Shown here in pieces: positions 3,010 to 26,204 of a DNA stretch of 34,301 nucleotides (its first letter is position 1; each line of letters opens with the position of its first letter). The position numbers and the translations under genes are program-made. The DNA is from Cochliopodium minus. Taxonomy: Eukaryota > Discosea > Himatismenida > Cochliopodiidae. Location of the stretch: NCBI GenBank assembly GCA_024220525.1, contig JAMYWO010000101.1:66474-100774 (forward strand), written 5' to 3'. The notes below the pieces were generated by a model that was given only the letters and a program-made list of their open reading frames with translations, had not been told where the DNA came from and made no database searches.

Positions 3010-5363
3010 ATGAACGAAGAGATTATTTGTAATACATGTAGAGTTGTCTTCAAGGATAATGAAGAACATAGAATCCATTTCAAATCACAATTGCACACCT
3101 TCAATTTGAAGAGAAAGGTGGCAAATCTTGCTCCTGTCACCAAAGAACAATTTGAGAAGAAGATGGAGCAGATGAAAAGTCAAGGCGAAAATAATAAGAA
3201 ATATGAAGGAAAATGTAAGGAATGTAAGAAATATTTCTCATCTAAGAACACATATGAGACCCATTTGATCTCCAAGGCTCATATCAAGAATGTAGAAGCC
3301 AAAAATAAAATCAAGAATGAAAAGAAGAAGAATATTGAGGCTGAGGAGAAAGGGAATGAAAATGTGAGTGATGAGAATAAAGAAAATGAAAATAAACAAG
3401 ATAATGATAAAGGTATTAAAAAAAAATCTTTATTTTTAGAATTAAACTTTAAAGGGAGAATTAATTTCAAAAATTGAAAGTATAACTAAATCTAATCTAT
3501 ATTTAAGTTTAATTTATTCATATATATATTCGATTTCTTTCTTTTTTTCCATTTTATTTCCTCTTTAAATTTTCCCAATCAAAAATATTTTGTTTTTGAG
3601 ATCATTTCAATTCTAAAAATATTTATTGAACCAAAAAAAATGAATAAAACAATTATAAAAATAAAATTTCTTTTGATTTTCTAATCAATGATAAAATTCA
3701 ACAACCCACAGTGAATAATAATTGAAACAAAAGATTTTTTTGTGAATAAAAATTAATTTATCAGTCAAAGGATTTTATTTTAAATCATATTTCTCTTTTA
3801 AAAATACTAGATTCAGTCTCAGAATCAACAGATTTTACAGAAGAAAAGAAAAAAACACCATTCCCAGAAATCTACACCAAAATTCTCGACATCAACGCCA
3901 TCATCAACACCAACATGCAAACCGAGAACGGAGAAGACATCCCTGAAGAAGAGAAGAAAGAGGTTGAAGAAAAGATTAGACATGCTTACAATTTTGGAAT
4001 GGAGGAGTGCATTTTTTGTAATTTGATTTCTACTAGTTTTTCTGCTAATGTAAAACACATGACAAAGGAACATGGTAAAAAAAAAATTATTTTTTTTTTT
4101 ATAATATTCAATTATTTTAAAATTCTGAATTTACTTTGTTCAAAATATTAACTTTAAAGAATTTTTTAAATATTTAATTTAAAATTTTTTAAATTATATT
4201 GAAAAAATGATTTTTTTTTTCACCTTTAATTTCATTTTTTAATAAAGTATTTTTATTATTTTTTTTTGATATTTTTCATTTTATTATTTATTCAAATCTG
4301 GGCCTTGATTCAACTTAATTTAATTTCTTTATCGAAAGATTTTTTATTTATTTTTATTTTTACTTTTAGGACTTTTCATTCCTGATTTGGAGTATTTGAT
4401 AGACTTAGAGGGAATGATCTTCTACTTGGGTAAAAAACTTTCCATCGCCAACTCTTGCTTTTGGTGCCTCAAACACTTTTCCACCTTGGAAGGTGCCCAA
4501 AGACATATGATCGACAAAACTCACTCTAAACTCCCTGATTTCGACGACGATGATGAATTTGATGAGTTTTATGATTTTTCTGATTCTTATAAAAAAGGTC
4601 AAAAAAAATTTTTTTTGATTTTTTATTAATTTTATTCATTTTTAAAATGTTTTTTTTATGTATTTACAAATTTTTATAACATTATTTGTAATTTACAATT
4701 TTTTTTAATTTGATTTTTTTAAAAATTTATATATCTTAAAAAATTGTTTTGTTTCTTTCTGATTTATATTTTGTTTTAATATTTATTAAAAATAATATTA
4801 TTTTTTTGATTCTTAGGAGAGGATATTGATGATGTTATCGAAAAAGCAAAGAACAGAATTCAAGTTTCCGAGGATGGACTTTTCATCTCCTTCAGTGACT
4901 CCAACAAAGTTGTTTCCCATAGATCCCTTACCAGATACCACAAACAAAAATTGGCTCCTCCTGAAACAAGAGACAGTGTTCTCATTAACAAAAGTATTTT
5001 TTTTTCAATCAAATTTTTTATTTTTTTATTTTTATTAAAATATTGAGATTTATAATAAAAAATAAAAAATTGACTCAGTAAATTAAATAAAATTAATAAA
5101 ATTATTTTTTAAAAATAAAAATAAAATTATTTTTTAAAAAAAATTTTTTTTAAACATATTCATTTCTTTATTTTTTTTTAGTGTTAAACAATTACAAAGT
5201 GTTGGGTTGGAAAACTTCTACTGTTATTTCAACCACAGAAAAGAAGGTTCAACTTAAACACAAGAAAAAGTATCTCAACCTCAGACAAAAGTGGTACATG
5301 GAGTTGGGTGTCAAGTGTAACAAGTTGCAGAAGCATTACAGAGATGAGCATGGTCTCTTGTAA
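3010..5363 (+). CDS. Cytosolic 60S maturation factor, REI1/ZNF622 family
   Basis: Five exons: 3010..3412, 3811..4074, 4370..4597, 4817..4993 and 5182..5363; all four introns are phase 1. The product is 417 residues, close to yeast Rei1 (393). It has four C2H2 zinc fingers: residues 7-29 (Cys7, Cys10, His23, His29), then CKECKKYFSS, CIFCNLISTSF and CFWCLKHFSTLEGAQRHM. The family signatures LKRKVANLAPVT, EHGLFIPDLEYLIDLEG and HRSLTRYHKQ are present, as is the C-terminal ELGVKCNKLQKHYRDEHG. In yeast, Rei1 acts late in cytoplasmic pre-60S maturation and helps recycle the export factor Arx1. I chose the ATG at 3010 because it lies just before the first finger. A complete, confident orthologue. Confidence 0.96.
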
Positions 5364-11679: not shown

Positions 11680-13000
11680 ATGAACAAGATATTCAAATTC
11701 AAAAAGATATCATTTGGGTTATTGGACAAGAAGGTGAAAACAACTCTCAACAAACACACCAACAAGAGATTCCTGGGCAATCTGATCAAAACACAAAATA
11801 ACAGCTCCACATTCCCAATAGCATTCGTGGTAGGTGCCTCATTTGCCACATGGATGTTGTATGATCTAGATAGCCTCTTTGATAGATCCCTCGTCCTTCC
11901 TCCTCAAACAATTATACATGAAAGAGTCTATATACAAGAGGATCCTGTAGAATTGATGAAACATAAGGTGAAGTTTGAAGAGACTCCTTTGCATACTAAG
12001 GCCTTGGCTTATTTGATCGATGCTTCTTTGATCCATCTACCTTTGCAGGGCATCTCAGCACTATTGGGTTTATTTCTTCCTTCTTGGAAGCAATTGCTTT
12101 ATAATTGCTCTTTGATCATTGGTGTGATGGGTAATCTCTTTCCACTTAAATTTATATTAATTCCAATCCTATTTTTCAAACCATATACACGCCATAAATC
12201 TTTTTTTTGATCGACATTATAATTCCTTTTGACGATATCATCAATTCTTATCTTCTATCAAATCTTTTTAATCCAAACTTTATATAATCAAAGGATGAAA
12301 TTAATTCTAATAAATTACCCTATCAATAAGCAAATATCATCCTGAATCATTCTACATTTAATCATCGCAATGAAATTTATCAAATATATATTGATTCATT
12401 GATTAATAGGAAAATAAATGATACATCAATCAACCTTTAAATTCTCCTCTAATCATATTTAATTGAAAAGAGAAAAAGTATTTTAATCCTCAACAATAAA
12501 TTAAACATAAATAATAATTAATATTAAATCAACAATAAATTAAACATATTCCTTTTTTTTTTTAGTATTTCCCGTGAGAGATTTAATCTTCAGAGATCAA
12601 AGGTCTATTGGAAAAGAAATGCAAGACTTGACCATATTTGATAAGGAAACAGGCGAGTTGGCAACCAAAGAACAAATTTTAAGAAAAACTGCTTTTTATC
12701 TACCCTTCCAATCTCTTTTATTGTTGGGACAGTTGATCCCTTCTCTTAATTACCAAATCTTTGCTATTCTTTCTGCTATTTTTAATTTATCTGATATTTT
12801 ATACTCTGTCATTTCTCCTACTCACAATTCTTTTGGAGGTAAAAAAAAAAATTTTGTTTAATTTACTAAATTATTTTATTCTCATTTTTTAAAAAAAATT
12901 TTTTGAAATTGTTTGACATTTTTTCAATTTATCTTTTAAATTTTTTTTTTTAGATGACTATGCCGGGACTATTGTATCTAAAGCTTCTTTTATTGATTAA
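11680..13000 (+). CDS. RDD-family membrane protein 1, presequence-like N terminus
   Basis: Exons 11680..12130, 12566..12838 and 12954..13000, both introns phase 1, giving 256 residues. Residues 1-40 are strongly basic (MNKIFKFKKISFGLLDKKVK), like a mitochondrial presequence. Residues 44-62 form a likely membrane span (TFPIAFVVGASFATWML). The RDD domain starts at residue ~106 with KALAYLIDASLI, continues through FRDQRSIGKEMQDLTIFDKE (the usual R-x-x-x-GK and strand), has two further hydrophobic spans, and ends in GDDYAGTIVSK, matching the conserved G-D-x-x-A-G-T/V-x-V close of RDD. RDD proteins are multi-span; their biochemical role is poorly defined and some bacterial members are linked to ion transport. 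Two paralogues lie nearby. Mitochondrial location is inferred. Confidence 0.85.
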
Positions 13001-13165: not shown

Positions 13166-14381
13166 ATGTTAAAGATTAAAAAGATATTGGAAATGAAAAA
13201 GATGGATTCATTCATCCACAAAATCAAATCACCATTCTCCAAATCATCTTCCAAATACTCCTTCCTCATTAGCTCCTCCACCATCAAAAGAAGTAATAAT
13301 CTGATGAGATCGCTCTCCCTCACCCTCACCACTGCCACATTGGGATTTGGGGCCTTATATCTTTCTAATGATCAAATAGATATGCAGGCATCAAAACCAA
13401 TAACGATCGAACAAGATTCTTATCAAGATCACAGAGCTCCTGCCAAATCTCATAATCCATATCGTTATGATCCAACTGTAAATCAAGATGAAAAAATTAG
13501 TGATAGGATCTATTCTTCTGCAAAGGATGCGATTGTGTTTGGGGGTGTTACTTATCTCATTTCGAGATTGATAACAATAGGATTTAAAGTTGATCAAGTT
13601 TGGAAGAATATAATATTTGGATTAGGTAAAAAATAAGCAAAAACCAGTTTTATCAAATATATATTGATGATATCCTGTTTCATTGGAGTTGAATTATAAA
13701 TGTTAAAATAATATAAAGCCTTAATACTTTATAAAATCAAGATCAAATCCTATTTATTCGAATTCAAATTCCAATATCCTCCTTTTCATTTAATAGAGTT
13801 TAATCGATATATTCATTTAATCCAATATTCCTTATGATGTTAATCTCTATTATTTCTTAATTGTAATACTCATCAAACTTTAAAAGGATCAATCATTGGT
13901 ATTGGAGCTCAAATGTTGGGAGTCTCCTATAAATACATCAATATACATTACTTTGATAAATTCGCCACGATAGATTCTGGGACTCATGTTCCAAGATCCT
14001 CCACCTTGCAAAAGATAATTGATTATTCAGGATGGTGCTTCCTCAATCTCTTTGGATTGTATACAGCAGGATTTCCAAAGATTGCACTCACCATAGGTGG
14101 TACATTTGGAGTATTTAACTTGATGAATATATTTATTTTGAATTTACAAAAGAAATCACTTGGAGGTAACAAAAAGAAAAATATAATCTTTTAATCTAAA
14201 GAATTGGGATCGAATATTCGTTATTTAATACAATTGATATTCTTATTTTTAAAATTTTTTTTAAAATATAGAATTTGTTGCTGGTGTTACAGTTATTCCA
14301 ATTGAAGATATAAAGGAGATTGAAGATAAAAATATGAATGTATATTTTTTGAAATTATCAAATGGAACTCATCCACTTTAA
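13166..14381 (+). CDS. RDD-like membrane protein 2, divergent paralogue
   Basis: Exons 13166..13625, 13887..14165 and 14272..14381, both introns phase 1, giving 282 residues. The N terminus is Lys/Ser-rich without acid clusters (MLKIKKILEMKKMDSFIHKI; a second ATG is at 13202), followed by a hydrophobic span SLTLTTATLGFGALYLS near residue 60. A soluble linker leads to AKDAIVFGGVTYLISRLITI, two hydrophobic segments in exon 2, and a last exon that opens EFVAGVTVIPIED. Intron position and the A-G-V-x-V motif match the last exons of the other two RDD genes, which is why I call it a paralogue. The Arg and Asp that name RDD are largely lost (Asp to Glu before the A-G). It lies 165 bases after RDD gene 1, same strand, consistent with tandem duplication. 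Confidence 0.7.
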
Positions 14382-15110: not shown

Positions 15111-17036
15111 TTATTTCAACAAATTGGATCTCCATATACATACATTCTCATCCCATGAAGCAGAGGCAATTTGATCGTTGAAAAGATTGAAATCGATTCC
15201 AACAACAAATTCAGTATGATGGGAAAGTTTATCCAAGAGAGGATCATCTTGCTTGCCAAGATCCCACAACATAACGGACATATCGCTGTTTTTAATATAA
15301 AATTTTTTTATATTTTCAGTGAATAATAAAAAAAAAATTATTTTGTTTACTATGAACATGAAGCAATGATATTTTCGCTGTGAGGAGAAAATTTTAATCT
15401 TCTGATTGCATAATTATGTCCATGAAGTTCCATTACTTCTTTATCTGAAAAAATAAAAATAAAAATTAAAAAAATTATAAAATAATGGATGAATTTCACT
15501 TACTTGGCTTTCTCAAATCCCAAACTTTGATTGTTTTATCTACGGATCCTGTGGCTATCTCAAACTCGTTGTATTTGTTCCAATCACAAGTGAGGATCTC
15601 AAAGTTGTGGGCTCTGATGGTCTGCTTCGACTTTTTGGCTCTGATGTCCCACACTTTCAGTGTAAAGTCTCCACTGGCAGAAGCAAAAAGATTTTCTACG
15701 ATAGGAGACCAGACTGTACTGTTATTAAAAAATTAAGTTTTTTTTCATTTCTTTTTCGAAATTAAATTTGATTTCTTTGTTTAGAAATAAAAACTTTTTT
15801 TGTTTTTGTTTTTATTCATTATTTTTTTTATTTATTTTTTCTTTTTACAGTATATATTGACCCATGGACATATTTTTAACAATGAAAAAAAAGATCATCG
15901 ATTTATTAAAAATATGAACTCAAATATAATTATTTTTTTCAATCCAGTAAATTAGAAATCGAATTGAAATGAAAATAATAAATTCATAAGGTATTCCTTT
16001 AAAATTTAAGTTTTACAAAAGTTCAAAATTTTCTTTTTACCTATATACACAATAAGTATGTTCTTTGTAAGTTGTGACAGATTTGGCAACGTTAGGATCC
16101 CATACTTTGATGCTGTTGTCCCAAGATCCACTCACAAAAAGATCTTTCGTTATCAAATTCCAATCCACAGAGTACACCTCGTGTGTGTGCTCTTCATAAC
16201 TCATCAGTGGGTTTTTGGGGATGTTGATATCCCATAATTTAATTGTACCTTTTTTTAAAGATAATTTGAATTTAAAACTTTTTTTCATATTTTTAAAATT
16301 TTTTTTTGATTCTTTTAAATGGACATTTCCAAAATTTACAACTTTGTTTGCAGATATTAATTAACAACTGGCAAATTTGAAACAGTTGTTAAATTTTGAA
16401 CTTTTCTTCTATATTTTAAAAAGATTCTTTTTTAAAGTTTTATTTAACTTTATTAATCAATCTTTCTGCGATAGTTGAATATTTCTATAATAATTTTATT
16501 TGGGACAATTATTTATCCCATTAATTTAAAAACAATCCCTAAAATTTTCATTTATCTTAACATTGGGAATATATTTTTGATCATTATTGATCATATCATC
16601 AAATTATTGGAATTATATAATTCTTTTTTGATGTGATATGTGTTACTGTTTCAAAGCAGAAAATAATATAAAGGGAATAAAATATGAACATGAATGAAAT
16701 GATTTATTCAAAAGAGTATATGTACATATCATTTGATTATCTTCCTATCAAAATTCATTAAAAAAAAAGGATATATTTACCATCACCTATACCAGAGAGA
16801 ACATGATTTTCATTCAACTCATTCCAAGTGCAATCATAAACACCATCTTGAGTATCAAAATGGATCAATTCTTGCAAGAGACCCCTCTCGTTGATTTGGA
16901 AGATGAATTGTCTCCCATTCCCCACTATCCCAAAGTGCTGGGAACATCCAACTGCCAATTTATTTTCTTCGAAGGGAGAAAATTCGACAGAATAAGGATG
17001 GAATTGTGTATTGACTGATATCATATCCCTTTTCAT
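15111..17036 (-). CDS. PEX7: Peroxisomal targeting signal 2 receptor, PEX7
   Basis: Five exons: 17036..16781, 16248..16041, 15718..15504, 15444..15351 and 15285..15111, all junctions in frame, giving 315 residues (family usual ~315-325). WD40 repeats fill the protein: PYSVEFSPFEENKLAVG, the PEX7-typical SQHFGIVGNGR (residues 32-42), FDTQDGVYDCTWNE, GDGTIKLWDI, SGSWDNSIKVWD, SASGDFTLKVWD, ATGSVDKTIKVWDLRKP, GHNYAIRRLKFSPH, ASCSYDMSVMLWDL and ASASWDENVCIW. PEX7 binds cargo with an N-terminal PTS2 signal in the cytosol and, with a co-receptor such as PEX5L or PEX20-type proteins, delivers it to peroxisomes. This is good evidence that the organism has peroxisomes with a working PTS2 route. The start MKRDMISVNTQFHP follows an A-tract. 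Confidence 0.97.
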
Positions 17037-17273: not shown

Positions 17274-18352
17274 CTATTTTTCTTTTTCCTGAACTACCAC
17301 AACACCCGCCACATGATCTAAAAACAATTATTGTCAAGAATAAAATAATTTTAACATTGTTAATTTAAAAATTTTAACCTCCAATAGATCTATGTCCTTC
17401 ACTAACGAGCTGAAAAACAGAATCTAAACTAAGAAGTAGGTATGAGAGAATGGTTGTTTCAATCTATAATTAAAAAATAAAAAATTAAAATTGAGATTAA
17501 ATTATTGTATTAATAAAAAAAAACTATAATAAAAAGTTGAAAAAGTTTTTAGAAATTTTTTTAAGTTTTTTTTTTTTTAAAAAATACAGCGGTGTTAGGA
17601 ATGATGTCTCCGGTGAACAAATACAAAATGAAATATAAAATTCTTTTAGAAATCAATTGCAATACGGTCGCATCGCTTTCTGTTTTGTAGTCTACTGTCT
17701 TGAGCCTGAAATATCTTTTTCCTAGAGAGAGTTTTGATCCAATAAAAAAATCTCTGTCAAATAAAAAAATTAAATAAAAAGTAAAAAGTTAAAAATTCAA
17801 AGTAAAAAATTCGGAAAGCAAATTAAAAAAATTAAAAAAATACAAATTTAAATAAAATTTAAATAAAATTTGTTACCTAAAATTCACCAATGTCACATTT
17901 ATAAAGTAAAAGATACGATTCAGATCAACGTTGCCGATCAAAGGGTAGAAGGATGAGATGATGTATCTTATGGACTGCACGGAGAAGCTGATGAAGAGAT
18001 TGTCGATGAGGAATGACAACAATCTGGTGGCATATCCTGGATATGAATATATCACAGGCAATGATTGATTATCTTTGGTAGAAATAAGATTTTCATTATT
18101 GTCTCCTTTGATATTATTTGCATTTTGGGTTTCATTGCCTTCCATTGATGCCCCATATTTGAATTTTTCATTCATCATATACGCTCCTGCAAATCCTATC
18201 ATGCTCATCTTCACCATCTTGGTCCATCTCTGTCCCACATCTTTGGATGATGGAATTTTGGTTTTGTATTTTGCAGTATGAGATTTGAATTTGTTGAATT
18301 GATTAGGTTTTTTGGGTATCTTTGAAAAGATATTCAAATTTCGAAACTTCAT
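17274..18352 (-). CDS. RDD-family membrane protein 3, presequence-like N terminus
   Basis: Four exons: 18352..17877, 17753..17588, 17463..17379 and 17317..17274, giving 256 residues, the same length as RDD protein 1. The start MKFRNLNIFSKIPKKPNQFN is a basic presequence-like stretch; an in-frame ATG at 18409 would add 19 acid-containing residues. A hydrophobic segment lies at 46-60 (MVKMSMIGFAGAYMM), then an Asn/Asp-rich linker. The RDD domain begins at residue ~107 with YATRLLSFLIDNLFISF (the Arg and Asp that define RDD), continues with RDFFIGSKLSLGKRYFRLKT, then LQLISKRILYFILYLF, and closes with GHRSIGGDHVAGVVVVQEKE. The last intron falls at the same Gly as in the other two RDD genes. It is divergent from the hydrolase and upstream of PEX7 on the same strand. 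Confidence 0.87.
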
Positions 18353-18498: not shown

Positions 18499-20709
18499 AT
18501 GTGCCTCAAAATATTAAAGTTCATTTCTATCTTTATATTGTTGGCTGTTTCATTGCTGATTGGTTGGCATATGAAGGCCAGCAGCGATTTCGATTTGAAA
18601 ATTCCAGGAAAATTGATAAAGGTAGGATTTTATGGACAGAAGCTTCATGTCTATTGCAAAGGACCCAAAAATTCAAATTATACTGTTATTTTTTTACATG
18701 GTAAGGAATTATAATACCTGAAAGAAATATAATCAAGATTATAAAAATAAATCACCAATTATCTATCATAATGAAAATTTGTTAGTAAATATATCAAAGA
18801 ATGGATCAATATCAATCAACATATACAAATGATAATATGATCATATTCAATCAATGATCAATTTAGATACTATCATATGTTGAAATATAAAAATTGATCC
18901 AAATTATATTGCGCATATTAAATTGTTACAAAAAATTTTCAATTGAAACTTTATAATATTTTATCATTGTGTATCTTTCATTTATTTGGAATGAAATTAA
19001 TTTAAAGAATTGGAGATAGTGAAAAATTTTTTATTCTTTAAATATTTATTTTAATAAAGGTATGGGCCAGTCTTTCGCGGACTTCACAAACGTTCAGTTA
19101 AACTTGGAAAAGCAAGGAATATACAGTTGTTCATATGACAGGTAAACAAAATTATATTAACGATTTATTTTGTTTTTCAATTTTTTATTTTTTTTTTATT
19201 TTATTTTTTATTTTTTATTTTTTATTTTTTTATTTTATTTTATTCATAAAGACCAGGTTATGGATTTTCTCCTAAACCTCAAAATGAAGAAGTATTGGAT
19301 TTGAAGATGCAAATGGATTTGTTGAACCAATTGATCCACAAAGGAGGAATAATTTCTGAAAATTCCAAATTAATTCTGGTGGGGTAAAAAAGAAAAAAAA
19401 AAAATGCAAAAATTAAAATAAATTAAAATAAATTAAAATGCAATAAAAATTTAATTTTTTATTTCCAACATTTTTAAACTCTTTCAAAATTTTTTTTTTT
19501 TTTTTAAAAAAAAGGCACAGCTTGGGAGGACTTCAAGGACTTTATTATTCAAACAAATACCCACAAGATCTCCAAGGTACCTTTTTCTATTAATTTTTAA
19601 AGTATTTTTTTTTTTAAGTACACTTATTTTTATTTTTATCAGGGTTGGTCCTTATGGATCCTTCCATGCCTTCTTTTTCAAAGGAGTTGAAAGAAAAACT
19701 TGGTTCATTGGAAGTCTTTTTCAAACTTGGTATATTTTCACCTTTATTATTTTTATTTTTAATAGTAAAATAATTCAATATATTTTTTTTAATTTCTTTA
19801 ATATTTTTATTTGATTTTATTTTTTATTTGATTAAAAATTTTTTTTATTTTTTATTATTTAAGTTTGTATTAATTATTTTTATTAGTTTTTTATTTTTTT
19901 ATTTTTTATATTTTTATTTTTTATTATTAAAGTTTGTGTTAATTATTTTTTATTTTTTTGTTTTTTGTTTTTTATTTATTATTTTTTATTTATATTTTCA
20001 TTTGATTTTTTTATTAGCGGAATATTTTGGTAATTTGGGTATAATGAGACTCATGGTGAAGGATAATGGTGTAAATTTGCCATCTAAATCCCAAAACGAA
20101 AATAATCACTTTGTAGCTGAATTCTTGAAAAGAGGGCAGACTTTTGAGATGTCAAATAAAGAATACAGGGCATGGATCGAAAAGTAAAATTAAAATTAAA
20201 AAATTAAAAATAATTAACTATTAAAAATTGAATTGAATTAATTTTAAAATTTTTTTAAAATTATAGATATTTAAAGAATTAAAAAATAAATAAAATTTAA
20301 AATAAGAATTAAAAAAAAATAGAATTTAAAAAATTTTAAAATGATTAAAAATAAAAAAAGAATTAAAATAAATTTAATTTAAAAATTAATTAAAATTTAG
20401 TCATAAAAAAAAATTGGAAAATTATTTGTTTTAAATTAATTTTCTTTATTCAGTGCTTTGACTAATCTTGATGGATTAGAGAAAAATAAAAACATTAAAG
20501 TCACTTTGATCAAACCTAGCCAAGTGATCAAAAATCCAATGTTGGATGAGTACACCAACAGTTTGATTTACTCTGAAATGCAAAATTACTACAAAGAGTA
20601 TTTTTCTGGGTTTAGTGGTGCTGAGACTGTTGAGGTTGAGGCTGACCATGTTACTATGTTGATGCAAATTGACTTTTTGACTTTTCAGATTTTGAAACAT
20701 TGTGTTTAA
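18499..20709 (+). CDS. Membrane-anchored alpha/beta hydrolase
   Basis: Seven exons: 18499..18700, 19060..19141, 19252..19383, 19515..19576, 19643..19729, 20018..20183 and 20454..20709, giving 328 residues. Residues ~5-24 are an N-terminal membrane anchor (ILKFISIFILLAVSLLIGW). The fold's marks are in order: VIFLHGMGQSFADF (oxyanion-hole HG), CSYDRPGYGFSP, the nucleophile elbow VGHSLGG with Ser141, LVLMDPSM with candidate acid Asp165, and EADHVTML with catalytic His309. All three catalytic residues are present, so it should be active. Substrate cannot be read from sequence; lipid esters are a common choice for anchored members. Intron 1 (359 bases) is long and unusually complex for this window. 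Confidence 0.88.
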
Positions 20710-20926
20710 AAAATTAAAAAAAAACATTTATTTTATTTAAAAAATTTTTAATTTCAGTTAATTTTTTTATTGAAAATTTGCGCAATAAATAATTAAATAA
20801 AATTGAGAAAAGATTTGGATAGACCTGTTTGCATTTCAATAAAGCAATATATAATAAAGGATCATCATAACAAATATTTAAAAGATAATCCAAATATAAA
20901 ATAAATTTATTAATATATATTGAAGT
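20710..20926. promoter_or_regulatory. Spacer before the RAD54-like gene
   Basis: These 217 bases separate two plus-strand genes and should hold the hydrolase 3' end and the RAD54-like promoter. I see no gene or distinct motif. Confidence 0.3.
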
Positions 20927-23900
20927 ATGGAAGATTATAAAAAGATCACAAAAAATTTCAACATCACATTGCCCAAATGGGAGGAGATATATAAAGATAT
21001 AATAGAAATATTTGTGAATAAAAAAATGGATGGAGATAAAATAGATAAGGATGAATCAGATGTGAGGATATCCAAAAGAATAAAAAGAAAGAAAAGGGAG
21101 AAAGATTTGCAGAACAAAGAGGATATCTTCGGGAATGATTCCATCGAATTGGAAGACAAGAATTCCAGGAACAAAAAGAGGAAGGTAGAACCCGAAAGCG
21201 AAGAAGAAGACGAAGAGGACTACCAAGAAAAAGATAACATTGCTGATTTCATTGTGAAAAGTGAAGAAGTTGAAGAAGAAGAAGAGGAGGAAGTAAAAGA
21301 AGAGGAAATAAAAAAAAAACGAGGAGATGAGATTGAAGAAATAGGAGGGGAGGAGGTAGATGAAGTGCGGGAAATTGTGTTGACACCCGAAGAGCCCAAA
21401 AAAAAACTAAAGTTGAAAAAATTGATGAAAAAGAAAGACTCTGAGAAACCCAATGACATCTCCAAAACAGCTTCTACGCTCAAAAACGTTTCCTCTGAAA
21501 AAATTGACAAAAGCCAAGACAGAGGTTTTTATCTTTAATTTTTTTTTATTGATAAAATTTTTGTTTTAAATCTTGTTGTTAAAAAAAATAAAATTATTTA
21601 AAGAAAATTAACTTCTTTTTTTTCAATTTAATTTCCTTCTAAAATAACCATTTTTTATTTCAAACATTATTCTTGTACTTATTTTTTAAAAAAAAATTTT
21701 TTTTTAATATTTTGTAAAGAATTAACAAAGAAGTTAATAATACCAAAACCTAAAGTTGCTCCAGTGAAAAAGAAACTAAAAATACCCGATAGAGAACCAA
21801 ACGTTTTCGCCAAGAAAGTTGTGTCACAAGACCCTCAAAACACTGCACCTGTTGTCAATTCAAACAAAAACCCTCCCAAAAAAATTCCACTCAAGAAAAA
21901 AATCGTCACTTTATTACCTAAGTCAAAGGATTTGCCCTCCAAAAATAAAGTCCCTCCAAAAGTACCTTTGAACACTTTAGTTCGTAAAAAAAATTTTTTA
22001 TTCCCATTTTTAATATATTTTTTTTTAATTTTTTAACAAAAAAACAAGCAAAAAAACAAACAAAAGAATCTAACGAGGAAGGTAAGAAAATTAACATGTG
22101 AAAAAAATTTTTCTTCAGACATTTAAAACAATAATTCTTTTATAGCATCAAGAAATAGTAAATTTTTTAATTTTTATTTTTTGTTTAATTTTTGAATTTT
22201 TATTTTTCAATTTTTATTTTTTTTCATTTTTAATTAATTTTATTATATTATTCGTTTTATTTTTTTATTTATTAAAGAAGCAAACAATAAAACAGGTATC
22301 AAAATATTGAAAGACATAGACTTTATGGCAACTTCCTTCACCTTGAAAAAACCGTCCGCCAACTTGAAGCAGAACTGGGAAAGACTAAATAAAAGAAAGA
22401 GTGTTGAGGAAGTCAAAACTTTTGTTCAACGTAAAATTAAAATATATTTAAAAAAAAATGATGAATAAAAAAATAAAATAAAAAGTCATAGAAATTTTTT
22501 AAGAAAAATTAAATTTAAAATAAATTTAAAATAAAACATTTGAAATAAATTAATCAAAATTTTTAAATAAACAAATAAAAAAAAGAGATTTAAAAAATTA
22601 AAAATAATTAACTGAAAAAACTAAATAAAAATAATTAAATTTAATTTTTTTAAAAGAATGTTTCCCTAATTGGAAAGAGATAAATTGTGAAGAAAGGGTT
22701 CTGAGAAACATCCACTTTCTGATGGAGGACTTGTATTTCAAGAAGAGCATAAACTACCAAAAAAACCAAAAAGATAAGTTGTTGGGGAAAATTCTGATCA
22801 ACAGCCAGTATATGCCCACTTTAACTCTTCTCTCCAAATTGTAATGATATTTATAATTTTATTTTTTAAATGTTTTATTCTTAAATATCTTTTATTTTAT
22901 ATTTTTTTAAAATTTTTATTAAAAATTTTTTTTTATTTTTATTAAAACATCACATTTTTTATCTTTTAAAGTTTTTAATTTTATTTATATTTTTATATTT
23001 TATTTTATATGTTTTTATTTTATATATTTTTAAAATTTTTTTATTTAAAATTTTTATTTAAAATTTTTATTTATTTTTGTTATAAAACATCACATTTTTT
23101 ATCTTTTTAAGTTTTTTGTTTTATTTTATTTTTATTTTATATGTTTTTATTTTTATCTTTTTATTAACTTTATCGATTTCATCTTTATTTTATTACATGT
23201 TTTAACAAAATATCACATTTTTATCTTTTTTACGTTTTTATTTTTTTTTTAAATAAAATTTTTTTATTTTTTTATTTTTTAAATGTTTTGATTTTTATTT
23301 TTTAAGACTGTTTTCAAACGAAATAATTCAAAAATCAGTAATCATAGTCCCAAACCCAAAAATGAAATACTTCCAACACCACTTCTCCAAATCCGAAGAA
23401 TCCCCTCTCTTCTCCCTCTCCAACACACAGCCTCACATTGAAATCTCCTCCAACGTTAAGATGTGGAATCAATCCAAAAACTCCATCTTATTAATCTCTG
23501 TCAATGTCTACAAATCCCTTTTTCTAGATAAAAAAGGTGAGTTAAATTTATTCATTTTCACTAAAAATATTTTAATTTTTATTTTATTACAATATTTATT
23601 AATTTTTATTTTAAATAAATTTTTATTAATTTTATTTTAAATAAATTTTTAATTTATTTTTTGTTTTTATTTTTTATTTTTTATTATAAATATTTTTGTT
23701 TTATTTAAATAATTTTTATTACACTATATTTCTTTTTGATGAATTTTTTTTCTCACAAATATTTTTTAAAGAAATTTTGATTTATATTAATTTTTTAAAT
23801 ATTTTTAATTTTTATTTTTTAAATTACAAATATTCTTGTTTTTTTGTACTAAGTTTTGATTTATTTTTAATTCTTCTTTTAGACAATGATATCACCAGGG

Positions 23901-25900
23901 ATTTAGGCACTGCTGATGTTTTGTTTTTCGAGTTAGATAGAGGAAATACTTCAGAGGACGATTTCTCTCCATTTTCTAAAACTCCCAAAATCTTCTTTAC
24001 AAACTTGGATTTTTTTTCTGTTCACAAACAAGTAATATTTTATTTTTGATTATTTTTGATTTTTTAATAATTTTCATTAATTTTTAATCATACTTTCTTT
24101 TTATGTAATTATTTTTTATTTATTTTTATTAATTATGTTATTTATTATTTTTATTTTTGTGGAATAGATTTACGAAATAGCCGATATGTCACAAAAAGGA
24201 AGTTTGGGAGCAAAAGAAATTTTTAACGATTTGATTTTGAACCCAATGGAAGTATGCTCCAAAAGAACAACCAAACCAAATTTCTGTGAAATTTTTAAAT
24301 TGGAGGAACTTTTCAAAATATTGTCCGCTGATATTTTGTTCGATTCTTGTCCACAGCCTGAAAGAGTAAATGAATATAGCATCACTTTGGCCATTCAAGA
24401 AAAAGAGAATCTTTACTGTGAAAACTTTTCAAAGGCAATTTCTACTCAGAAAGAATTATATCCTGACATTATTCATAAAAATGGTATGTCATTATTTTTT
24501 AAATTTTTTTACTTTTATGAGAATTATTTTTTTTGTTTTATTTTATTTTATTTTGTTTTATTTATTTTATTTTATTTATTTTATCTTTATTTTTAGTTTG
24601 ATTTTATTTTATTTTTCAATTTAATATTTTTTTTACTTTTTTGGAATTTTTTATTTTATTTAATATTTTTATTTTATTTAATATTTTTATTTTTATTTTT
24701 ATAAAAGTTTCTTTGATTTTTTCGTTGGGAGATTTTGCTTTGGATAGAAAGTTTAATGATGAAATTTCCCAACAAATTTTGTCAGAGCATCTCAAAACAC
24801 CTCCTCAAATGAGTTCTTCCAAGTACGGCTTCATCACCTCCCTCTTGCAAAAAGTGGTGAATGAAAAGAAGAAGATGGTGGTGGTTACTCAATACAAAGA
24901 AATTATTATGTGTTATTATCAATTACTATCTAAAAGTATAAAATAATTTTTCAAATTTTTTATTTTATATTCAATATTTTTAAATTTTATTTTATTTTTA
25001 TTTTTAAACTTTAATTTTATTTTCTAGATTTTTATTTTCTTATTACTTGAATTTTTATTTTTTGTTTTTTATTTTTTTTTTTTTGTTTTTTTGTTTTTTT
25101 GTTTTTGTTTTAATAATTTAATTTTTTTATTTTATTTTTAACTTCTATTTTTTATATTTAAATTTTATTTTATATATTTTTAAATTTTTATTTTTTTCCA
25201 TTTTAATTTTATTTTTTATATTTTTTATTTTATTCATCATTTATTATATGATTTTTATTTTTTATTTTAAATCATTTTATTTTTATCTACTCCACCAAAA
25301 GGCCATCAAATTCTTTGTCTGAACGAATTTTCGTCATACAAAAAAATAGAAAAAATAAGCAAGAGATTCGCAGAACTGAAAGACCACCACCTCCTCTTCG
25401 TAGAAAACAGTCCCTCCATCCTCTCCTCCCTAAACCTTCAACAAGTGGACTACCTAGTATACATGGAACCCTTCATCAACTCCCACGAAAGGTGCACCAT
25501 GTTGAAAAACATTTTGCAAACATCCACCGTAACTCCGACCGTATTTTATTTGAAAACGAATCACGTTTTCGAAAATTTTTTCAACGAAAATTCTTTTTTT
25601 TATTCTAAATTATCCCCTTTGGAATCTTCTTCTTCATTTACTTCCTTTTTCGAATCTTCTTTAATCACTTTCGACGATTTCTCAAAGTTCTTTTCTTTGA
25701 ATGTTAACTCTTCTGGTGTCGATCACCCTCTTTTGAACTCTGGACATCCTGTCCTTTCTTCTTTGGGTCTTTCTAACGATCATATTGTCAAGATTGGTGA
25801 TTGTAAGACTTTTCCTGACAAGAAAGACATCCTCTTGAATGAAATTGAGTTTAACAGCTTTTCCCAAAAATTTTTTGGATTTCAAAAAGATGAAAGATAA
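20927..25900 (+). CDS. SNF2/RAD54-like protein with degenerate ATPase motifs
   Basis: Ten exons: 20927..21524, 21720..21983, 22049..22081, 22278..22430, 22657..22840, 23307..23536, 23883..24031, 24168..24483, 24708..24935 and 25302..25900. All junctions are in frame; 917 residues. Residues ~35-345 are a charged Lys/Glu tail. From ~363 the order follows RAD54: LRNIHFLMED (Q-motif region), GKILINSQYMPTLTLL (393-408, where MGLGKT should be), KSVIIVPNPKMKYFQHHF (motif Ia), VLFFELDRG (500-508, where DEaH should be), KIFFTNLD (523-530, for TGTP), KKMVVVTQYKEIIMCYYQLL (helicase C start), SILSSLNLQQVDYLVY (757-772), and ERCTMLKNILQ (781-791, for the Arg-finger motif). FSKFFSLNVNSSGVDHPLL resembles the RAD54 segment after the helicase. 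Likely a non-hydrolysing partner or scaffold; the family call is by motif order. Confidence 0.72.
22930..23240. repeat. Three diverged copies of a ~120-140 bp unit in an intron
   Basis: The core AACATCACATTTTTTATCTT and its variants start near 22944, 23084 and 23207, each followed by a similar AAGTTTTT...ATATGTTTTTATTTT stretch. Spacings are 140 and 123 bases. The array lies wholly inside intron 5 of the RAD54-like gene and accounts for its length. Confidence 0.65.
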
Positions 25901-26204
25901 TTAAAATAAAATTAATCTATAATTCAATTTTTCTAATTCATTTTCTTGTCCATTTAAATTTTTAAAGTTTTAATAGTTCAATTTTTGTTTTCATCCATTT
26001 TTTTTTTAAAAAGGATTTAAAGACAGGATTTCATAAAGATGTTTTAGTTGAGGAGAAATCCTTTTTTGAAAACAATCAAATCAGAAATTTATTACTTTGA
26101 GGTAAAGACGTCAAAAATTGGATAATTCTTCAATCAATCTATCCATTTCTTTAATTTCTTACTTTCTTAGTTAATTGGAAACAAATTAAAAAATAAATTT
26201 TTAA
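25901..26204. other. Convergent spacer between the RAD54-like gene and BET1
   Basis: These 304 bases separate converging genes. One plus-strand stretch, 26012-26098, follows an AAAAAG and reads open with coding-like composition (KTGFHKDVLVEEKSFFENNQ) to a TGA, but I cannot attach it to either neighbour. Confidence 0.4.

Follow-up and report, generated by a model that had tools for sequence, protein, structure and literature searches.

Gene model of the locus

The window analysed here is a stretch of 34,301 nucleotides (nt) from the intron-containing genome of Cochliopodium minus (C101:66474-100774; assembly of 44.65 Mb in 598 contigs), with a guanine-cytosine (GC) content of 24%. On its plus strand lies an open gene of normal coding composition, hereafter the query gene, for which sequence comparison shows SNF2 ancestry by profile and no intact ATPase motif. 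Its parts are the following:

20927-25900, plus strand: whole gene, 11 exons, 921 amino acids (aa), with a splice model made from genomic DNA alone
20927-21524, 21720-21983, 22049-22081, 22146-22157, 22278-22430, 22657-22840, 23307-23536, 23883-24031, 24168-24483, 24708-24935 and 25302-25900, plus strand: exons 1 to 11
22146-22157, plus strand: candidate microexon of 12 nt, phase-neutral, encoding ASRN in the linker before the core; its inclusion is uncertain
20927-22297, plus strand: N-terminal region, residues 1-309 (exons 1-4 and the start of exon 5), delimited by composition

The frame is open through all 921 codons, the stop ends at 25900, and GT...AG borders are found in 10 of 10 introns. 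An earlier sequence-only reading of this DNA gave ten exons and 917 aa, which equals the present model minus the microexon; we prefer 11 exons, and all the landmarks quoted in that reading were found here in a single splice-consistent frame. Most exon borders are also given by a gene finder, which was trained on the same gene and so is not independent; it passes over the microexon, places the end of exon 10 at 24911 (24935 in the splice model), departs from the last exon at 25848 and adds downstream sequence.

The long charged N-terminal tail described before is borne out by residue composition, being acidic and basic in residues 1-205 (30% D+E, 24% K+R) and basic in residues 206-309 (25% K+R, 7% D+E). 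No SNF2 signal was detected in this region, its hhalign score being reached by 184 of 200 shuffles.

SNF2 ancestry and the relation to RAD54

Downstream of the tail, alignments to SNF2 and RAD54 sequences place these landmarks, all on the plus strand:

22785-22826: motif I (Walker A) site GKILINSQYMPTLT, placed by local alignment with two RAD54-free SNF2 profiles
23332-23358: motif Ia KSVIIVPNP, retained
23918-23944: motif II (DEGH) site VLFFELDRG, with two alignment registers
23999-24010: motif III (TGTP) site TNLD, by alignment
24198-24248: SNF2 LGT box GSLGAKEIFNDLILNPM, in register with NVLGTMKSFTNFFEKPI, by alignment
24866-24904: motif IV region, the opening strand of lobe 2, KKKMVVVTQYKEI, by alignment
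25397-25438: motif V site FVENSPSILSSLNL, by alignment, with glycines lost and LNL kept
25487-25519: motif VI site ERCTMLKNILQ, with K and L where the two arginine fingers should be
25664-25735: RAD54-like C-terminal box ITFDDFSKFFSLNVNSSGVDHPLL, aligned with FSKEELKDIFTLNCHTDSDTHDLI of the genome's own RAD54

Compared as a single sequence with a 32-sequence SNF2 profile, the query protein scores 53.6 in hhalign (E 4e-6, probability 87%), and the alignment comprises 357 collinear columns across the two-lobe core. None of 200 shuffles scores as high (maximum 28.0), and the reversed query reaches 19.0. SNF2 descent, as proposed in the sequence-only reading, is thus shown by profile comparison. 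A 121-sequence RAD54 profile gives 36.5, again matched by 0 of 200 shuffles, and the C half of the protein scores 35.8, a value that none of 300 shuffles reaches. With each of four profiles, of which two lack RAD54, lobe 2 (core residues 373-489) outscores every one of 100 shuffles. The two main alignments share 99 columns and place 96 of them identically. When 148 pieces of 113 predicted proteins were compared, 40 outscored the query's piece, all from SNF2 loci and on the SNF2 strand; among the unrelated predicted proteins of the examined loci, none had a piece that reached the query score. The specificity controls were shuffles, the reversed query and these unrelated proteins.

The genome has its own RAD54 (L035, minus strand, G000:C109:37500-47400; E 8e-153 to the RAD54 structure 1z3i). 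All its motifs are intact, so that an active RAD54, of which the sequence-only reading had imagined the query protein as a possible partner, appears by sequence to be present elsewhere in the genome. With RAD54 and RAD54B the query protein shares the order of landmarks, the LGT box and, less surely, the C-terminal FSLN...DHxLL box; it differs by having no intact ATPase motif, by an identity to RAD54 of about 18% in aligned columns and by a branch of more than 4 substitutions per site.

Several observations point to RAD54 as the nearest subfamily, which is not proven. When 31 sequences are ranked by mean column score in an alignment referenced to RAD54, the first ten places include 9 of the 11 RAD54 sequences. 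The C-terminal box (FFSLN...DHPLL versus FxLN...SDTHDLL) is equalled by 1-3 of 100 shuffles with the 121-sequence RAD54 profile, by 34-70 of 100 with a joint profile, and gives no signal with non-RAD54 profiles; the alignment runs through this box with RAD54 profiles only.

The core could instead come from another SNF2 subfamily (for instance near L026, its neighbour in the tree), or the protein could be a direct regulator of active RAD54/RAD51 rather than a chromatin protein. We consider this unlikely, though worth real weight. In a maximum-likelihood tree of the query and 24 of the 32 sequences, the query falls outside the RAD54 clade: it joins at a point that separates RAD54 from all other SNF2 proteins, with L026 beside it and a branch length of 4.1-4.7 substitutions per site. 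The paralog L030 is fifth by column score, above the genome's own RAD54, and two RAD54 sequences are 14th and 21st. The query and the own RAD54 have no intron positions in common, and WRDGQ, the RAD54 motif VI signature, is not present in the query by alignment. Against this stand the ranking of the RAD54 sequences, within the limits of a RAD54-referenced alignment, and the extension of the alignment through the C-terminal box with RAD54 profiles alone. Of the earlier description as RAD54-like, the SNF2 part holds, while RAD54 membership is only suggested.

A further alternative is that the protein is not SNF2 at all, being some other two-domain alpha/beta protein that mimics the order of secondary structure. 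The signal is weak with smaller SNF2 profiles, and curated families are silent: Pfam and NCBIfam searches of the query protein gave no family match (PF00176 and PF00271 at E up to 10), and a PDB sequence search returned 5 matches, best E 0.45, none of them SNF2. Fold prediction was confined to contiguous translations of the window and covers exon 11. Predicted alone, this exon has a predicted local distance difference test (pLDDT) score of 39, and its strands and helices follow the order E-H-E-H-E-H-E that a RecA lobe should have; the structural matches of this low-pLDDT model are other alpha/beta folds. When a RAD54 alignment was supplied, pLDDT rose to 60 and RAD54, Rad26, SRCAP and ISWI were among the matches (best E 0.09), the RAD54-type matches being partly built in by that alignment. 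No Foldseek match to the exon 11 models was found at E 0.001. The collinear 357 columns, the identical register of the LGT box with four profiles (the box is not significant alone) and the alignment of the C-terminal box with the RAD54 profile make a non-SNF2 origin quite improbable.

It was not possible to find an ortholog. In the protein database, none of 7994 scored candidates matched the core at E 1 and none of 418 matched exon 11; scoring in this search is limited to candidates that have in common with the query most of a set of at most 100 words, and by our estimate an ortholog below about 50% identity could escape it. No relatives were found in the viral contigs searched. Two database proteins (P0001 and P0002) are 71% and 82% identical to parts of the own RAD54, and given these the close relatives of the organism are probably sampled in part.

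Catalytic sites and state of the gene

An active SNF2 ATPase would have Walker A GxGKT, DExH, TGTP and the motif VI arginines, and none of these was found in the query protein. The replacement of Walker A, Walker B and motifs III and VI had been claimed before, and the aligned sites are indeed intact in no register seen. In motif I, ILIN----SQYMPTLT lies opposite LLCDDMGLGKTLQTIS and ILADEMGLGKTIQSLA, with four P-loop residues missing and K replaced by Q; both local alignments are weak, 1 of 100 shuffles scoring as high in each. A low-confidence alternative puts LLGKI on GLGKT, where GxGKT is not intact either. Motif Ia is retained (SVIIVPNP opposite VLIITPTS). For motif II, DEGH falls on -ELD or, with low confidence, on LDRG; DExH is intact in neither, and the catalytic Glu could survive in one register. 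Motif V reads NSPSILSSLNL in place of SSKAGGVGLNL. Normal ATP binding and hydrolysis are not expected of a protein with a shortened P-loop that has lost its lysine, a broken DExH, and neither TGTP nor the arginine fingers.

It could be argued that the motifs have changed beyond recognition and ATP is still used. Drosophila SUUR, whose SNF2-like domain was once thought inactive, hydrolyses ATP strongly (PMC9917439), and here the low-confidence LLGKI register and the Glu kept in one motif II register would fit such a case. The same paper (PMC9917439) gives SUUR a lysine, K59, in a putative Walker A motif, in addition to its ATPase activity, and in this it differs from the query: the better-placed alignment has a loop four residues shorter with Q in the lysine column, and TGTP and both arginine fingers are missing. 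A cryptic ATPase is therefore very improbable.

The composition of the gene is that of coding sequence. Each intron has 7-19% GC (8.6% together) and the exons together 34.7%. Fourfold-degenerate sites have 38% GC (277 sites) versus 8.6% in the gene's introns, and the median over 107 predicted genes, called by the same gene finder, is 33%. In homology-defined SNF2 cores, the 8 canonical genes have 20-44% and the query core 39.5%. A gene freed from selection here should drift toward intron composition, at which about 60 in-frame stops would be expected per 921 codons. Since exon and fourfold-site GC are like those of active SNF2 genes and far above intron GC, the gene does not seem to be decaying, and the earlier statement that this is not simple decay agrees with both the open frame and the composition. 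A search for paralogs in the same genome gave 7 matches, all 7 being exons of the query gene itself. We suggest that the gene is most likely maintained in single copy and in working order. Decaying SNF2 remnants, in a pseudogene or joined by a wrong gene model, would suit the very long branch, the failure to find an ortholog with core or exon 11, and a gene known from genomic DNA alone; the 921 open codons, the coding-type GC and the canonical borders of all introns make this highly improbable.

Almost no weight can be given to mis-splicing, in which another gene model would restore an active SNF2: the splice model comes from DNA alone, the gene finder gives another 3' end and leaves out the microexon, and a motif-VI-like word (QEIRRTER, at 25360) lies in another frame of exon 11, but the six-frame genome searches and pattern searches reveal no intact set at the locus, as the query contig is absent among the 51 PF00176 matches listed and from the 89 PF00271 matches (E <= 0.1), the plus-strand frames of 20901-26000 contain neither a Walker A nor a TGTP pattern, and both of their DExD words fall in the acidic tail.

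A possible scaffold, a second degenerate SNF2 and the neighbouring genes

We lean, by a modest degree, towards a pseudo-SNF2 protein: a descendant of an SNF2 DNA translocase, most likely near RAD54, with a dead ATP site and serving as a chromatin-binding scaffold. The two-lobe core would be kept in sequence and normal ATP binding and hydrolysis lost. An SNF2 core with no recognisable ATP site is unlikely to move along DNA, which would leave it with binding. As a static clamp or platform, the core may hold duplex DNA, a nucleosome or a partner motor, with further contacts to DNA, histones or partners perhaps made by the long charged N-terminal region. We infer the scaffold role, the DNA binding and the partner, the mode being modelled by analogy on Hda2/Hda3, whose ATPase-less RAD54-lobe-like domains anchor a histone deacetylase.

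Pseudo-SNF2 proteins are a known kind, with ATPase-less SNF2-like cores in yeast and plants. Yeast Hda2 and Hda3 are non-catalytic subunits; in PMC7062823 their DNA-binding domains are said to resemble RAD54-family helicase lobes and to bind DNA non-specifically, and they are proposed as a DNA-binding scaffold anchoring the deacetylase. The TAD of fission yeast Ccq1 resembles Hda3 (PMC9333443). The query would share with these a helicase-lobe-like core without catalysis; it differs from Hda2/Hda3 in the long charged region that precedes its core, in having landmarks of both lobes and in the RAD54-like C-terminal box. Pfam HDA2-3 (PF11496) has no match in the query protein, and none of the 10 PF11496 matches in the genome is on the query contig. 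Plant MOM1 also has a dead SNF2 domain in a retained gene. PMC2507757 describes this domain as degenerate and derived from the active remodeller CHD3, the gene being kept for another function; in Arabidopsis only lobe-2 motifs are left, and the SNF2 region is dispensable while a different domain silences. The CHD3 descent, the restriction to lobe-2 motifs and the dispensable SNF2 region set MOM1 apart from the query.

What is new here, as far as the aligned sequence tells, is a pseudo-SNF2 that combines a RAD54-like layout with a shortened P-loop and the loss of every intact motif. A dead RAD54 paralog was not found described in the literature searched, most subscription journals being outside its scope. 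In enzyme families, dead members that became scaffolds reveal what in a motor is of use when no fuel is burned, and the query, with an intact RAD54 in its genome, would be a clean case in which to ask if the SNF2 fold can serve as a static DNA clamp. More speculatively, and rather unlikely, it could represent an undescribed branch of full-length pseudo-SNF2 proteins with RAD54-like layout, a dedicated non-motor subunit that joins active RAD54 or another remodeller as a static clamp; at least two SNF2 motors of this lineage (the query and an EP400-like one) would then have turned scaffold.

The EP400-like protein (L038) is a second degenerate SNF2 of this genome, predicted to have 1756 aa and located on the minus strand of C10:282500-292400. 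Alignment gives -ETS at the motif II site, THPK at motif III and a motif VI without arginine; the motif I site, located by eye, is FILINDNFSEITQ, with Walker A broken. Its first 1567 residues match the Pfam families HSA (8e-15), SNF2 (2.7e-19), Helicase_C (7.5e-6) and Myb/SANT (1e-8). Eaf1, a subunit of NuA4, has HSA and SANT and is not known to have an ATPase. In PMC11995519 the scaffold EP400 is described as Swr1 merged with Eaf1. L038 has the same domain layout as EP400, and by sequence it may be a NuA4 platform whose motor has been lost. An EP400 with a dead motor would stand midway between EP400 and Eaf1, and L038 is perhaps a better lead than the query gene.

Other genes were observed in the window. 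Three predicted genes encode similar-looking small membrane proteins (11680-13000, plus strand; 13166-14381, plus strand; 17274-18352, minus strand); the second has no match in Pfam, and the third matches Pfam RDD. An alpha/beta hydrolase gene (19062-20709, plus strand) lies directly upstream of the query gene on the same strand. Pfam confirms only the class of the two remaining ones, a C2H2 zinc-finger protein (3010-5363, plus strand), which we take to be REI1/ZNF622-like, and a WD40 protein (15496-17036, minus strand), presumably PEX7-like.

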